Part shown: positions 8,357 to 16,230 of the stretch, piece by piece
Numbering within the stretch: position 1 is the stretch's first letter
How the letters are laid out: each line of letters starts with the position of its first letter
Origin: a virus
Reading direction: 5' to 3' (one strand)
Virus record (IMG/VR): IMGVR_UViG_3300042946_000144
Span: 88,332-111,215 of that record
DNA: 22,884 nt
The notes under the pieces: model-generated
What the model was told of the DNA's origin: nothing
Seen by the model: only the letters and a program-made list of their open reading frames with translations
The model's database searches: none
Position numbers and translations under genes: made by a program

Positions 8357-8530
8357 TCATTTAGAAAGTCTTTTCTGTTTCATTGGCCATTGAGGACTTT
8401 TTAATCTGAGCTTTGTGTCAGCTTCCTTCATGTAATTCCCTTTTGGATTGGGATTATTCACCTTAGGAGCTTTCTTTGGAGCACCAGATTTCTTAGCCTT
8501 ACCAAATGTTGTACTCTTACTTGCAGCCAT
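8357..8530 (-). CDS. Small basic protein, 57 residues
   Basis: I found this gene by translating the gap before the terminator. It starts MAASKSTTFGKAKKSGAPKK and continues with a Pro/Asn/Lys stretch and YMKEADTKLRLKSPQWPMKQ. It is strongly basic and likely disordered, in keeping with its neighbours. Its ATG overlaps the previous stop by 14 bases. The conserved-looking KEADTKLRLKSPQWP patch appears, from memory, in small proteins of other Bacteroidota phages. It is possibly virion- or DNA-associated; function unknown. Confidence 0.75.
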   Translation of the reverse strand: MAASKSTTFGKAKKSGAPKKAPKVNNPNPKGNYMKEADTKLRLKSPQWPMKQKRLSK

Positions 8531-9047
8531 ACATACATTTTTTAGTCATTTTACCACCAGACTTCATTGTAGGTTTCATAGAAGCAGCTGCACCACCATA
8601 TTGCATTTTCTTTTTAACTTTCATTCCTTTCTTAGCAATAACACCACGACCTTTAAGAATATCAGCCTTAGTGATTTTACCATCTTTGTTAAGATCAGGG
8701 AAAGAACCACCTTTCTTGAAAACACCATCTAATGGTGATTCTTTTGGATAAGGAGGATTAGCTTTCATTCCTCCCATTACACGAACTTTTGTTTGTTTCT
8801 TGCCTGGGGTTTTAGAAGCTTCCACCATTTTCTTAGCACCTCTTCTATTTGTTTCAAACTCAACAGTTCTACCTGAAGGACCTTTTCCAGTAACTTTAAA
8901 TCTTTTAGCTCCACCAGCAAGTCCTGAAGTATCTGCAGTCATTGTTCCACCTTTTGGACCAACAGTTTTTACGTAAGGAGGTTTAGATTCATCTCCACCA
9001 TTTTGCATCTTACGTTTGGTCTTTGATATCTTTTTCATCATTTTCAT
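8517..9047 (-). CDS. Lys/Gly-rich protein with one EF-hand-like loop
   Basis: The 176-residue protein is basic and low in hydrophobics. Three regions can be seen: a Lys-rich N-terminus with KMQNGG, a middle part (GGTMTADTSGLAGGAKRFKV to ETNRRGAKKMVEA), and a single calcium-loop sequence DLNKDGKITKAD at 118-129 with ligands D118, N120, D122, K124 (backbone) and D129. It then repeats KMQYGG and ends in a Lys/Met/Cys tail (KKCMYGCK). The EF-hand loop pattern is exact; a dockerin or full EF-hand pair is not present. Probably a virion or internal capsid protein, by place in the late arm; this is inference. Confidence 0.8.
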   Translation of the reverse strand: MKMMKKISKTKRKMQNGGDESKPPYVKTVGPKGGTMTADTSGLAGGAKRFKVTGKGPSGRTVEFETNRRGAKKMVEASKTPGKKQTKVRVMGGMKANPPYPKESPLDGVFKKGGSFPDLNKDGKITKADILKGRGVIAKKGMKVKKKMQYGGAAASMKPTMKSGGKMTKKCMYGCK

Positions 9048-9068
9048 TTTATTGAAGTTTTTTGATTG

Positions 9069-9470
9069 TTAGCAATTCCATTTACGCAAACTCTTGTTGA
9101 TCCTGCTGTTAGGATCGTTTGCTGTTTTAGCCGATGTAAGTCTTTTCTTCATGCCAGACATTCTAGCACAGAATGACTTTCTACGTTTAGCAGATTTAGA
9201 ACCTGGCTTAAGCTTAGAAGGCTTTGTTGTAACAGCTGTCTTAAGTTTAGATCCTGGGTTAGCTGCTCTATAAGAAGCAACTCCCTTAGCATTCAGACCT
9301 CCTTCAGGATTCTTTCCTTCTGATCTTTGCCAAGCTGGTGTTTTACCACCATTCTTCAGGGTAGAACCTTTGAATTCACCCTTCTTCTTAACAAGAGGAC
9401 CATTAGGAACAGGTGTTACACCACGCATCCTAGGAGCAGATTTAACGATTTTCTTGAGAGATGTAGCCAT
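9069..9470 (-). CDS. Basic phage protein with a conserved DUF6321-type region
   Basis: The 133-residue protein has a region starting TPAWQRSEGKNPEGGLNAKG and ending ARRKSFCARMSGMKKRL, then LRKWNC. I recognise it as a domain of unknown function widespread in marine and gut phages (DUF6321, named from memory). The N-terminus is a basic linker. The SFCARMSGM and terminal WxC elements are the best conserved in that family. Function is unknown. Its 5' end overlaps the 3' end of the upstream gene by 29 bases. Confidence 0.8.
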   Translation of the reverse strand: MATSLKKIVKSAPRMRGVTPVPNGPLVKKKGEFKGSTLKNGGKTPAWQRSEGKNPEGGLNAKGVASYRAANPGSKLKTAVTTKPSKLKPGSKSAKRRKSFCARMSGMKKRLTSAKTANDPNSRINKSLRKWNC

Positions 9471-9660
9471 GTCTTCCGAATGTTATATTGTTCTTTATGA
9501 TAAGATCTTTGTGTGTGAGCTGCCACATCTGACCAGTTTCATTTATAATCACTGTATAGATTGTGTCAGTCTCATGACCGTAGTCTGTAACCAACCATAT
9601 GATACCATCTCCCTTAGGTGTTTTAACTTCCACACGGTTAGATGGTTCAAATATGATCAT
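9442..9660 (-). CDS. Hypothetical protein, 72 residues
   Basis: No family recognised. Unlike its neighbours this small protein is neutral and beta-rich (DGIIWLVTDYGHETDTIYTVII, then GQMWQLTHKDLII), a pattern like a small SH3-like or PUA-like barrel. It overlaps both neighbours: four bases with the upstream gene (ATGA) and 29 bases with the downstream one. The long downstream overlap is unusual, but the frame, start context and amino-acid content support a real gene. Confidence 0.65.
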   Translation of the reverse strand: MIIFEPSNRVEVKTPKGDGIIWLVTDYGHETDTIYTVIINETGQMWQLTHKDLIIKNNITFGRHGYISQENR

Positions 9661-9995
9661 TTTTTCTTTCTAGCTTTAAGAATCTTTGGTGCAGACTTAC
9701 GAACAATTCCTCCCTTTCTCTTCTTCTCTCCAAGCTCTTCTAATTGCATTTTAGTAAGAGTGGATCTCTTTGTTGAGTCACCACCTTCTCTTCTTGCTTT
9801 AGACTGAGCAATGCTCATAGCAATATTATAATCAGGAGATTCTCCTGTATAATATCTTGGACCACCAGCTGTAGGTCTTCTTACAACACCTGTGTATGTT
9901 CTACCATCACTGGTTGCACCACTAGCACCAGATTTTGTTCCGTTTTGTGCTTTCTTAACAGAAGGTTTTTTAACAGAGACTTTTTTGCTTTTCAT
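9657..9995 (-). CDS. Small Lys-rich protein with KKAQNG motif, 112 residues
   Basis: The ATG at 9995 is chosen because the longer frame runs into the preceding gene, whose stop lies one base upstream. The N-terminus is MKSKKVSVKK followed by KKAQNG at 14-19. A Gly/Ser/Thr-rich middle with PTAGGPRYYTGESPDYNIAM follows, and then a Lys/Arg-rich helix. It is strongly basic and has no membrane segment. The KKAQxG element also occurs in adjacent genes. Probably a virion-associated or DNA-binding protein; function unknown. Confidence 0.75.
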   Translation of the reverse strand: MKSKKVSVKKPSVKKAQNGTKSGASGATSDGRTYTGVVRRPTAGGPRYYTGESPDYNIAMSIAQSKARREGGDSTKRSTLTKMQLEELGEKKRKGGIVRKSAPKILKARKKK

Positions 9996-9996
9996 G

Positions 9997-10155
9997 TTAT
10001 TTTCCTTTACGGGCTTTAGCCATTTTCTTGAATGTCTTAGCAAGAGTCTTAGCTCTTCCAGTGCAACCAGGTTTGGTTATAGGAGTACATTTACCCTCAG
10101 TGCCACGCTTCTTAATAGAAGCTGTAGCTTTCTGTATCCACTTCTTATCAGCCAT
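9997..10155 (-). CDS. Small basic protein MADKKWIQ type, 52 residues
   Basis: I found this by translating the gap. It begins MADKKWIQKATASIKKRGTE, has two cysteines in GKCTPITKPGCTGRAK, and ends TFKKMAKARKGK. The MADKKWIQ opening and the CTPxTKPxCTGRAxxLAKTFKKM core are, from memory, a recurring small protein in crAss-like and marine phages. The two cysteines nine residues apart may form a disulfide or bind metal. It is tightly packed, with two bases to the gene before and one base to the gene after. Function unknown. Confidence 0.8.
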   Translation of the reverse strand: MADKKWIQKATASIKKRGTEGKCTPITKPGCTGRAKTLAKTFKKMAKARKGK

Positions 10156-10157
10156 GA

Positions 10158-10562
10158 CTATTTCTTTTTAGACATTTTCATACCAGACTTTGCCTTGTTC
10201 AACTTACCAATGGTTTTACCAACACTCTTCTTACTAGGAGAAAGAGTGCCACCATTTTTATTTTTAGGTTTAGTAGCTTTTTTAGCAGCATTCTGACCTT
10301 CCCATCTACCCACTTTTTCAACGTTTCTCTCATTAGGATATCCTTTTTCACCCTTCAAACCTCTTTCAAAACCTCTTCTGTAATTATTACTATCTAGTCC
10401 TGTAGGCATGATGTCTTTGTTCTGACCTGTTGCCTCATAATATTCATTAGCAACTCCCATTCTCAAGTTTTTGTAAGTGGGAGTCATCTTTTGTGTTTTA
10501 CCTTTTTGAGCCTTTTTAACCATGGACTTCTTAGCCATAGCTTTTTTCATCATCATAGCCAT
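10158..10562 (-). CDS. Lys-rich protein with KKAQKG motif, 134 residues
   Basis: The ATG at 10562 (MAMMMKKAMAKK) is used; the frame stays open further upstream but that stretch lies inside the preceding gene. The N-terminal 30 residues are Lys/Met-rich with KKAQKG at 16-21. The middle region (YKNLRMGVANEYYEATGQNK, RRGFERGLKGEKGYPNE) looks like a small folded helical domain. A Lys/Ser-rich disordered tail follows, ending KMSKKK. Basic, no membrane segment. Function unknown. Confidence 0.78.
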   Translation of the reverse strand: MAMMMKKAMAKKSMVKKAQKGKTQKMTPTYKNLRMGVANEYYEATGQNKDIMPTGLDSNNYRRGFERGLKGEKGYPNERNVEKVGRWEGQNAAKKATKPKNKNGGTLSPSKKSVGKTIGKLNKAKSGMKMSKKK

Positions 10563-10569
10563 TGTAAAA

Positions 10570-10986
10570 TTATTTAGATTTTGATTTAATCTTTTTTTCT
10601 TGCTTAAGCATTTGGGCAGTGGGTTTTTTACCACTGCCCTTGTTAGCACGAATATTATCCCAAAGACCACGTTGAGAATAAGAACCATCAGCTCTTTTAA
10701 TCATCTCTTTGCCAGCTTTTGCTTTTGTTACTTTGCCACCAGTCTTGTTTTTCTTTATAGGAAATCCATTAGCATCATACCCAGGCTTACCTTTATATGC
10801 TTGTCTCCATTTATCTTTAAGTGCCTGCTTTTGTTCTTCTGATTTATCTGACGTACTTAATCCATACTTAGATCTAAGCTTTGCAATAGCAGAAGCATCT
10901 TCAAATTTTTGTTGATAGTAAGCACTGCTATCAGGTGTGGCTTTTACACCTTTCTGGGCTTTCTTAATTTTTTTGACTGTTGCCAT
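10570..10986 (-). CDS. Lys-rich protein with KKAQKG motif, 138 residues
   Basis: The protein begins MATVKKIKKAQKG (motif at 8-13). The middle is helical (YYQQKFEDASAIAKLRSKYG). The C-terminus has RGLWDNIRANKGSGKKPTAQ and MLKQEKKIK, which I recall as a recurrent tail in small proteins of tailed phages of many hosts. It is strongly basic. First of the uninterrupted series of lysine-rich genes that ends at the terminator. Function unknown; a virion-internal role is possible. Confidence 0.8.
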   Translation of the reverse strand: MATVKKIKKAQKGVKATPDSSAYYQQKFEDASAIAKLRSKYGLSTSDKSEEQKQALKDKWRQAYKGKPGYDANGFPIKKNKTGGKVTKAKAGKEMIKRADGSYSQRGLWDNIRANKGSGKKPTAQMLKQEKKIKSKSK

Positions 10987-11321: not shown

Positions 11322-11596
11322 TTTATTTCGAACACAATTGTCGCAGAAGTCTTTATGCTCTTAGACAGATTTAGTTTTATTTGGAATAGATTGTGGAATT
11401 TTAATATCTCCTGTAGAAGCATCTCATTGTATTTAGGCAATGAGGGAGCTAGTCTGAAATGATATGAATAGGGGTTCTTTGTGATTTCCAATGTAGACAA
11501 TTCATCTACAGATGAAATAACTCCTTCAAGGTGTGCAAAATAAACTATTTCATTATCAGGCAACACTTCAGGAAAGAACCTTCTATTGATTTGCAT
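11309..11596 (-). CDS. Hypothetical protein, 95 residues
   Basis: No family recognised. The ATG at 11596 overlaps the preceding TAA by one base. The N-terminus (MQINRRFFPEVLPDNEIVYF) and the following strand-rich region suggest a small alpha/beta domain. The C-terminal third is Lys/Asn/Ile-rich with LNLSKSIKTSATIVFEINLEN. There is no membrane segment. Position after the ferritin-like gene gives no firm clue to function. Confidence 0.75.
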   Translation of the reverse strand: MQINRRFFPEVLPDNEIVYFAHLEGVISSVDELSTLEITKNPYSYHFRLAPSLPKYNEMLLQEILKFHNLFQIKLNLSKSIKTSATIVFEINLEN

Positions 11597-12009
11597 TATG
11601 AGAGAGTTAACAAGTATTTAGTTTTAGCAGCTTCACCAGACAGACTATCTGCAAGATTGCACACATCGTGAAAACTATTTCTTTCTCCATAGTCTTTTAA
11701 AGAAGATGCAAAAGACAGAAGATCTGATACACATTGCATGCCTGTACAATTTGTTAGAGCATCTATTTTATAAGCTGCAGGACGTTTGCCTGTATAGCCC
11801 ATGATTTTCTCAATCAATCCATCTTTGAAATCATGTACATAATCGTACAATCCTCCAAGTGCTTGGTGTTCAGCATAACTCTGTGTCTGCCAATGCAATA
11901 GATGTAGTTGCTCATGAAAGTATGTAAGCTTTGCTGCTATACTTTCTATGGTCATTTCTCCTCCTGAGGACTTCATCATGTCATCAGGAAACAATGATTT
12001 GATGGCCAT
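11596..12009 (-). CDS. Ferritin/Dps-like protein (DUF5856-type)
   Basis: The 137-residue protein looks like a small four-helix ferritin-fold protein. HLLHWQTQSYAEHQALGGLY then DFKDGLIEKIMGYTGKR resembles Dps: H48, D63 and E67 keep the spacing of H63, D78 and E82 of Escherichia coli Dps, and H39-W40 corresponds to H51-W52 with three fewer residues between the histidines. I recall this family as DUF5856 in phages. Dps proteins bind iron and protect DNA; whether this one oxidises iron, binds DNA or is only structural is unknown. Both cysteines fall in NCTGMQC near 107-113. Confidence 0.65.
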   Translation of the reverse strand: MAIKSLFPDDMMKSSGGEMTIESIAAKLTYFHEQLHLLHWQTQSYAEHQALGGLYDYVHDFKDGLIEKIMGYTGKRPAAYKIDALTNCTGMQCVSDLLSFASSLKDYGERNSFHDVCNLADSLSGEAAKTKYLLTLS

Positions 12010-14490: not shown

Positions 14491-15084
14491 TTATTTTAAA
14501 AGACTGTAGTATTCTTTAAAGTGCTTCAATCTATCAGGAAGTCCTATTGTACCACCATTAACACACTTAGTAACAGATGTAACTGTAGCATCAGTTGCGT
14601 CTACACACTTTTTTAAACAGTTCTTATGGAAGAACCAAGCAGCTGATAACAATGGGTATTTAGTTGCTACTAGATCAGGGTTGCTAATGATATCTTCTGC
14701 TACCACTTTATCAAACTCTGAGTAGTTAGATTTTCCAGTGAGCTGAATATAACCTCTACCTCTAAACTTATATCCTTCACCTGAAGCTTCGGGACCATTA
14801 CCCATTCTACCACCATAAACTAGATTAGCAATCTTTTCTGGTTTACGTTCGTATTCCTTAGCTTTAGCTTCTGTAGGGAAGTATTTCTTAAATATACCAA
14901 GAAGCCCTTTAGCTCCATAGTTTAAGTTTTCACTTACTGCTTTGAATCCACCTGATTCATGACCACACTGAGCTAAGAAATGAGAAAGCTCAACTGCTGT
15001 GTCTATTCCAAACTTCTGCTGCACCTCAGGAATTTGAGCTAATACAGCGTCTGGAATGTGTCCTTTTAGTTTGTTAATATCCAT
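14491..15084 (-). CDS. GH19 chitinase-type endolysin
   Basis: Phage GH19 enzymes cleave peptidoglycan glycan strands. The 197-residue protein has the catalytic region HFLAQCGHESGGF with E43 and the second acid E52 in SENLNYGAKGL, then the core FRGRGYIQLTGKSNYSEF and the conserved C-terminal AAWFFHKNCLKKCVD and TKCVNGG. There is no cell-wall-binding domain, signal peptide or membrane segment, so it needs a holin to reach the wall. It is the last gene of the lysis cassette, 27 bases after the PAS-membrane gene. Confidence 0.93.
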   Translation of the reverse strand: MDINKLKGHIPDAVLAQIPEVQQKFGIDTAVELSHFLAQCGHESGGFKAVSENLNYGAKGLLGIFKKYFPTEAKAKEYERKPEKIANLVYGGRMGNGPEASGEGYKFRGRGYIQLTGKSNYSEFDKVVAEDIISNPDLVATKYPLLSAAWFFHKNCLKKCVDATDATVTSVTKCVNGGTIGLPDRLKHFKEYYSLLK

Positions 15085-15111
15085 AGATTGTTTGTTTTAT
15101 ATTATTACCAG

Positions 15112-16230
15112 TTATTTTGATTTATCTTTCTTGTCATCTTGTGTAGCGTATTTAATACCCATAATTGTACCAACTATTGAAAATGCATTTGTTAGTAGAA
15201 CACTAAACATGTTACTCCAAGTAGAGCCAATTATCTGAGTATCTTTACCTGTTAGTATTGCCATCCAATATAAAATAGTGGTAACAACACCAACTCCTAC
15301 TATTACCGCCAAAGCACATTTAACTATTACTTTTATTAACTCATTTTGACTCTTCTTTAACACCATGTCTAAATCATTCAGAGCTATATTTTTTTCTATC
15401 TCTATTGAATCTTTAAGTTTGTTTGAATTATCTAACTCAATTTGTAAACTTTTTGAAAGTTCATCTATTTTCTTCTTATTATTTATTGAATCAGTAACAT
15501 CTGTAGCAATCTTAATCACTCCAGTAACATTACCCTTACTATCAAATACTGGGTTATATGATGCTTGTAAATATATTGTAGAACCATCTACTTTTCTTCT
15601 TTCAAATATTCCATCAAAATACTTACCCGTTTTTAAGCTTTCCCAAAACTTGACATACTCATCAGATTTAGAATACTCGTAACTTATAAATATGCTATGA
15701 TGCTTTCCAACGATTTTATTTTTTTCGTTAGATTTATAACCCATAGTCTTTAAAAATATAGAATTTGCATCTAGTATGAACCCATCAATGTTAAAACTAA
15801 TGATTGCACTACTTCTATTAATTGCATCTATTTGTTTTTTACTATCTACAATAGCAGTAATGTCAGTAGCAACTTTCATTATTTTAGTAATCTTACCACT
15901 ATCATCAAAAATGGGATTATAAGTTGCTTGTAAGTTAATTAAAGAACCATCTTTTCTTCTCCTTTCAAATTCTCCTTTGTAATACTTACCACTTCTTAGT
16001 ATATCCCAAAACTTTTCATATTCTAATGATCTAGCATAGTCTTCACATACAAATGTACTATGATGCTTACCAATAAGTTCTTCGTGTCCATTCTCACCAT
16101 ACCCCATTGCTTTCAAAAAGATATCATTTACACCTAATATAATACCATTAAGGTCAAAGTAAATAAGAGCATTACTCCTATTTATAGCTTCCATTCTACT
16201 CAACAACTCTTCTTTCGATAGATGTTTCAT
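15112..16230 (-). CDS. Tandem-PAS protein with coiled coil and two membrane helices
   Basis: The 372-residue protein has four regions. Two PAS domains, about 15-126 and 136-248, resemble each other throughout: AINRSNALI versus AINRSSAII, GKHHSTF versus GKHHSIF, RRKDGSLINLQATYNPIF versus RKVDGSTIYLQASYNPVF, ATDIT versus ATDVT. These are the PAS/PAC type of chemoreceptors and BdlA-like proteins, which can bind heme or FAD. A coiled coil follows (about 250-298), then two membrane segments (about 300-324 and 338-357) and a charged tail (DDKKDKSK). No methyl-accepting signalling, kinase or cyclase domain is present. Its start overlaps the previous stop in ATTCAGAATAATG, and it lies between a holin-like gene and the endolysin. 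Base content is lower in G+C than neighbours. A signal-controlled lysis protein is inferred. Confidence 0.82.
   Translation of the reverse strand: MKHLSKEELLSRMEAINRSNALIYFDLNGIILGVNDIFLKAMGYGENGHEELIGKHHSTFVCEDYARSLEYEKFWDILRSGKYYKGEFERRRKDGSLINLQATYNPIFDDSGKITKIMKVATDITAIVDSKKQIDAINRSSAIISFNIDGFILDANSIFLKTMGYKSNEKNKIVGKHHSIFISYEYSKSDEYVKFWESLKTGKYFDGIFERRKVDGSTIYLQASYNPVFDSKGNVTGVIKIATDVTDSINNKKKIDELSKSLQIELDNSNKLKDSIEIEKNIALNDLDMVLKKSQNELIKVIVKCALAVIVGVGVVTTILYWMAILTGKDTQIIGSTWSNMFSVLLTNAFSIVGTIMGIKYATQDDKKDKSK

Follow-up and report, generated by a model that had tools for sequence, protein, structure and literature searches.

A lysine-rich gene cluster in a crAss-like phage

Seven short basic genes lie on the minus strand at 8357-10986 of the window, by which we mean the whole 22,884-nucleotide stretch analysed here (G000:88332-111215, the end of a 111,215-base IMG/VR virus record). 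An initial annotation had reported KKAQKG, KKAQNG, KMQNGG and KMQYGG in adjacent lysine-rich proteins of this cluster, and a re-reading of the sequence places each of them where it had been described. Here and in relatives, gene starts were set mechanically and protein class labels follow simple sequence rules. The genes and motif copies are:

10570..10986, minus: lysine-rich protein, 138 aa; N-terminal tag, then KAKAG joint, then KEMIKRADGS... module
10948..10965, minus: tag KKAQKG, residues 8-13 of 10570-10986
10711..10725, minus: internal joint KAKAG at residue 88 of 10570-10986, directly before KEMIKRADGS
10158..10562, minus: lysine-rich protein, 134 aa, ATG at 10562
10500..10517, minus: tag KKAQKG, residues 16-21 of 10158-10562
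10182..10196, minus: joint-like internal KAKSG, residue 123 of 10158-10562, near the C-terminus
9997..10155, minus: stand-alone module MADKKWIQKA..., 52 aa, untagged
9657..9995, minus: lysine-rich protein, 112 aa
9939..9956, minus: tag KKAQNG, residues 14-19 of 9657-9995
9069..9470, minus: lysine-rich protein, 133 aa, without AQxG; LKNGG joint before a C-terminal DUF6321 domain
8517..9047, minus: lysine-rich protein, 176 aa; FKKGG joint before the SFPDLNKDGKITKAD module
8994..9011, minus: tag KMQNGG, residues 13-18 of 8517-9047
8592..8609, minus: internal KMQYGG, residues 147-152 of 8517-9047
8357..8530, minus: untagged basic protein of the same cluster, 57 aa, conserved in relatives

The five K[AYM]QxG copies are spread over four of the seven proteins. 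Four of them sit at residues 8-21, as expected from the N-terminal placement first described, but KMQYGG, at 147-152, is internal. A shuffle control bears the motif out: the seven proteins hold 5 [KR][AYM]QxG sites against 0.10 expected and none of 20,000 composition-matched shuffles reaches 5. Some parts of these proteins are exchangeable modules: KAKAG-KEMIKRADGS is internal in 10570-10986 and a separate 59-aa gene in L171, and the MADKKWIQKA... module is fused behind ...AKDG or ...AKGG in relatives. The DUF6321 domain of 9069-9470 is common to many cyanophage and pelagiphage proteins, so that some basic modules are traded far beyond the lineage. Just upstream of the cluster, at 11596-12009 of the window, lies a Dps/ferritin-like protein (DUF5856, phrog_858), perhaps another DNA-binding head protein.

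The genome is that of a crAss-like phage of about 111 kb. Its late genes match the crAss-type tail ring proteins CrAss_Ring_1 (E=1.7e-11) and CrAss_Ring_2 (E=8.2e-7), its P22-like portal matches phrog_6547 (E=5e-103), and genes of 4179 and 1641 aa, putative giant RNA polymerase genes, stand in the expected order after the muzzle gene. Matches and gene order together thus provide the ring proteins, P22-like portal and giant polymerase-type genes past the muzzle that characterize Crassvirales-type genomes. At the best 80 of at least 591 IMG/VR loci the capsid protein shows 96-98% identity, and its sole match in 50,697 phage records is Leptolyngbya phage Lbo-JY46, at 26% identity. By sequence, the lineage is one of widespread, nearly uncultured crAss-like phages. 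Searches of the PDB with the capsid protein and with a profile of the giant cargo proteins described below matched nothing. Relatives were gathered through the capsid protein, after a search for close relatives with peptide patterns of the 1518-aa cargo protein had given none.

The tag across relatives

The relatives also carry clusters of basic genes, in which 42 of 81 non-redundant lysine-rich proteins have K[AYM]QxG within the first 20 residues and some basic proteins have no tag. In total these 81 proteins contain 65 copies against 0.9 expected, a count that ignores the shared ancestry of what are non-independent samples; a control set of 1071 other proteins contains the motif once against 6.7 expected. 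The N-terminal consensus is M-[A/R]-x-[I/V/M]-K-K-A-Q-x-G, as in the example MATVKKIKKAQKG, with a hydrophobic residue at a fixed place three positions ahead of the Ala and another three positions past the Gly. Among orthologous tags Y or M replaces A, and E, K or A replaces Q, while the Gly is constant, and the general form is K-[A/Y/M]-[Q/K]-x-G(G). One back-translated form of the tag, scanned against IMG/VR, returned 43 stretches with 47 genes, all with K+R of at least 22.9%; a homologous capsid protein is present on 15 of the 18 larger source contigs, in one case merely 28% identical.

A recombination site, an early-codon translation enhancer or some other element of the DNA or RNA might by chance read as KKAQxG, and it would draw on the shuffling of modules at motif sites and on the translation-favouring effect of lysine-rich early codons. 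However, the tag codons vary at every position (GCT/GCC/GCA, GGT/GGC/GGA/GGG, AAA/AAG), which argues for selection on the peptide and not on a DNA element, and the same peptide occurs deep inside proteins of 1300-1500 aa. We give such an element almost no weight. Another reading, based on the clustering of the genes and their common modules, is common descent only, with the lysine-rich genes as recent duplicates and the tag as their last similar part. Yet the tag persists across 17 body groups (E 1e-5, 50% coverage) formed by 25 tagged proteins of this phage and its relatives, and the motif recurs in unrelated giant proteins, with variants in cargo genes of phi4:1 and Lbo-JY46, all of which leaves mere descent very improbable. 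The same grouping upholds the earlier remark that the tagged proteins otherwise differ, although short exchangeable modules are shared. As judged from codons and counts, the motif is selected as a peptide, and about half of the clustered lysine-rich late proteins carry it at their very N-terminus. On the small basic and giant cargo proteins of these phages it looks like a sorting or cutting signal, so far unreported there.

The motif in giant cargo proteins

Two giant genes beside the putative virion RNA polymerase contain three copies of KAQxG each:

G000:23173-27084: cargo A, 1303 aa
G000:27112-31668 (L004:7112-11668), minus: cargo B, 1518 aa, with a SET domain and HELGH

Over this genome and sixteen relatives, AQxG occurs 42 times in cargo A (10.0 expected from shuffles), 45 times in cargo B (3.9 expected) and 28 times in the lysine-rich proteins (1.6 expected), and is not enriched in the other 1111 proteins of the 17 genomes (39 against 54 expected). 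The motif is specific to two kinds of protein, giant cargo and basic. Its presence on giant cargo-block proteins, without enrichment in other phage proteins, fits the interpretation offered in the initial annotation, and both the lysine-rich and the giant cargo proteins are probably packed into particles.

In relatives the length of cargo B varies between 193 and 1787 aa, owing to cassettes that have been inserted beside the motif, between conserved blocks. In G005 it reads ASAQDG/KEV...HEIGH zincin...IAQNG/MEM where other relatives have ASAQNG/MEM, and a cassette follows KPYKAQIG/TML... in G010 at a point where G012 reads KPYKAESG/GWLDKY. The cassettes are mostly unnamed, given that Pfam found no domains in ten relatives of the 1518-type protein. 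The window's own phage has a SET domain at the cargo B N-terminus (E=9.7e-7) and a zincin-like HELGH motif (M91 E=0.03, below the cut-off); the zincin motif is HEIGH in G005 and absent from some relatives. A SET domain in a candidate phage virion cargo protein is unusual. Motif copies hold fixed, conserved cargo positions even where no cassette is inserted.

Motif copies at module joints

Homology breakpoints cluster around the motif. Within 5 residues of it lie 134 of 228 breakpoints in cargo B (null from 1000 shifts 61.6 +/- 8.0, maximum 91), 28 of 64 in the lysine-rich proteins (null 14.8 +/- 3.3, maximum 25) and 17 of 47 in cargo A (null 9.9 +/- 3.1, maximum 21), although shared motifs can themselves attract alignment ends. 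A module-context test was added for this reason, in which four recurring modules of basic proteins were located. A Gly lies within 4 residues upstream in 59 of 62 distinct internal module contexts, against 0 of 12 gene-starting copies (Fisher p ~2e-11, shared ancestry ignored). As far as alignments and contexts can tell, the motif marks the boundaries of exchangeable modules in the lysine-rich proteins and in both cargo proteins, all of them mosaic and probably disordered.

Given that the motif is missing on gene-starting modules, which have nothing upstream to remove, a cut or joint function is favoured, and the internal copies are more readily explained by a cut site or a joint than by a tag used for targeting alone. 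An inert Gly-containing linker, recognised by no factor and maintained by frequent module shuffling, would explain why lysine-rich joints often read KxGG or LKxGG and why breakpoints are located there. A mere linker is nevertheless disfavoured because the N-terminal tag, with about 6-17 residues before it, has nothing to join although it is the best conserved of all forms; in the counts above, A and Q also far exceed composition, and some cargo copies border no inserted cassette. We therefore consider an inert linker improbable. Taken together, the absence from gene-starting modules and the N-terminal tag recall T4 internal proteins, whose leader peptides serve in targeting before they are removed. 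N-terminal tags have Q where many joints have K, so tags and joints may differ in function, but this contrast is inflated, since starts in the 81-protein set were trimmed towards Q-type tags.

Search for a protease and the preferred reading

The initial annotation had offered a protease site as an alternative, for which the internal copies at module joints are suitable; no T4- or HK97-type prohead protease was detected to act on it. A Pfam search covering most proteins above 60 aa gave no prohead protease, and a PHROGs scan of the late genes gave no peptidase among the 25 of 31 families listed. Direct searches for S78 and for Peptidase C39 (the double-glycine leader peptidase) had no match while their controls worked; that for S77 had no match and its control was equally silent. 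The sole peptidase-like sequence is HELGH in the 1518-aa protein. Three genes considered as protease candidates were dropped: a 425-aa gene between portal and capsid encodes an acidic scaffold-like protein, a 289-aa late-operon gene is the split-off end of the muzzle, and a 322-aa late-operon gene has no peptidase-like look.

That Pfam, PHROGs and S78 searches name no protease is in line with a docking peptide that works without cleavage, binding a head component (scaffold, portal or other cargo) and recruiting the tagged proteins, with several copies on giant proteins giving multivalent binding. The N-terminal placement on half of the basic proteins and the fixed hydrophobic residues on either side also suit docking, and in crAss001 the C1 cargo is bound to the portal within the head (PMC10172136). 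On the other hand, stand-alone modules lack the motif and fused ones have it, the opposite of a per-protein address tag, and the Gly is constant where Ala and Gln can change. Docking without cleavage is a serious contender, if on balance unlikely.

Our preferred reading, to which we assign a probability of roughly 45%, is that KKAQxG serves the inner-head proteome of this crAss-like lineage as a signal for packaging and processing. A virion-assembly factor would recognise the motif and the chain would be cut after the Gly. At the N-terminus the motif would be a short leader that delivers basic proteins to the head under assembly and is subsequently removed. Internally it would set apart the modules within basic proteins and within multi-domain cargo, for example the SET and zincin cassettes in the 1518-aa protein. 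More tentatively, and with rather less confidence, the whole might be an undescribed modular cargo system in which DNA-binding and effector modules are strung like beads split by one peptide, N-terminal copies sort them into the head and a post-Gly protease releases them.

Comparison with known systems

The T4 internal proteins IPI, IPII and IPIII carry N-terminal capsid targeting sequences that are proven to target and are cut by gp21 (PMC9026906). As in T4, short N-terminal peptides of similar length are common to otherwise different basic late proteins. The differences are that sequence and cut consensus are other than in T4, that no gp21-like protease was found, and that here the motif is also internal at joints and occurs many times in giant cargo proteins. 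The T4 cleavage consensus is (I/L)xE, and the tag consensus has no LxE. The conserved N-terminal tag on differing basic proteins stands as described in the initial annotation, and the motif does not resemble the T4 cleavage consensus. T4 is a functional parallel, and the tag is not counted among T4-type sequences; the earlier interpretation as a whole is partly supported.

In having several shuffled functional domains on one polypeptide, the 1518-aa protein is like the polyvalent proteins of phages and plasmids, which are multi-domain, have shuffled domains and in some cases contain zincin-like peptidases proposed to process them (PMC5512222). Here, in contrast, the zincin is not universal, one recurring peptide joins the modules and small lysine-rich proteins take part in the same scheme.

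Among crAss-like phages, the best-known C1 cargo is crAss001 gp45 (C1), located in head and tail (PMC10172136). Like gp45 and gp46 (C2), which are virion proteins, the cargo genes here lie between the muzzle and RNA polymerase genes in a crAss-type tail order. The motif is not enriched in gp45 (2 against 1.1 expected), so the tag system would belong to part of the crAss-like phages. We know of no report of clustered, tagged lysine-rich genes in crAss001. The nearest experimental support for a virion location comes from phi4:1 gp040, a cargo homologue that is a virion protein by MS/MS and has an N-terminal KKYKRG and several internal FQxGG/YQxGG. In Lbo-JY46 (L008:2555-7532), three cargo-block genes start with the tag-like PKAQIG, SFGQNG and KYKFG, and the gene starting with KYKFG matches the block conserved in cargo B.

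Adenovirus and African swine fever virus proteases cut core-protein precursors at Gly-containing motifs. Basic core proteins and polyproteins cut at a Gly motif make this a works-like analogy only, with the difference that Pfam searches of this genome gave no such protease.

The word 'protease' is absent from the Crassvirales review consulted, as is 'cleav' from the crAss001 structure paper. A ten-residue tag makes the loading and release of large protein cargo by crassviruses directly testable. It would also help to find cargo proteins and injected effectors among very many uncultured phages, and foreign proteins could be brought into phage heads with it, in the way the T4 peptides have been used.

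Other features of the genome

An SPFH/Band 7 domain protein is encoded at G000:56064-56594 (L005:16064-16594, minus), between the portal and scaffold genes; a Band 7 protein is also found in phi4:1, where it is annotated as a virion component. The terminase gene (G000:59191-61200) is seemingly interrupted, with only a 254-aa frame and then some 1.2 kb in which no long frame matches; an intron or a frameshift may be the cause. At 14491-16230 of the window, a GH19-type endolysin gene adjoins one whose protein has two PAS-like repeats and, at its C-terminus, a membrane part, and Cellulophaga phage phi14:2 has a similar pair in gp088 (glycoside hydrolase) and gp089 (PAS domain).
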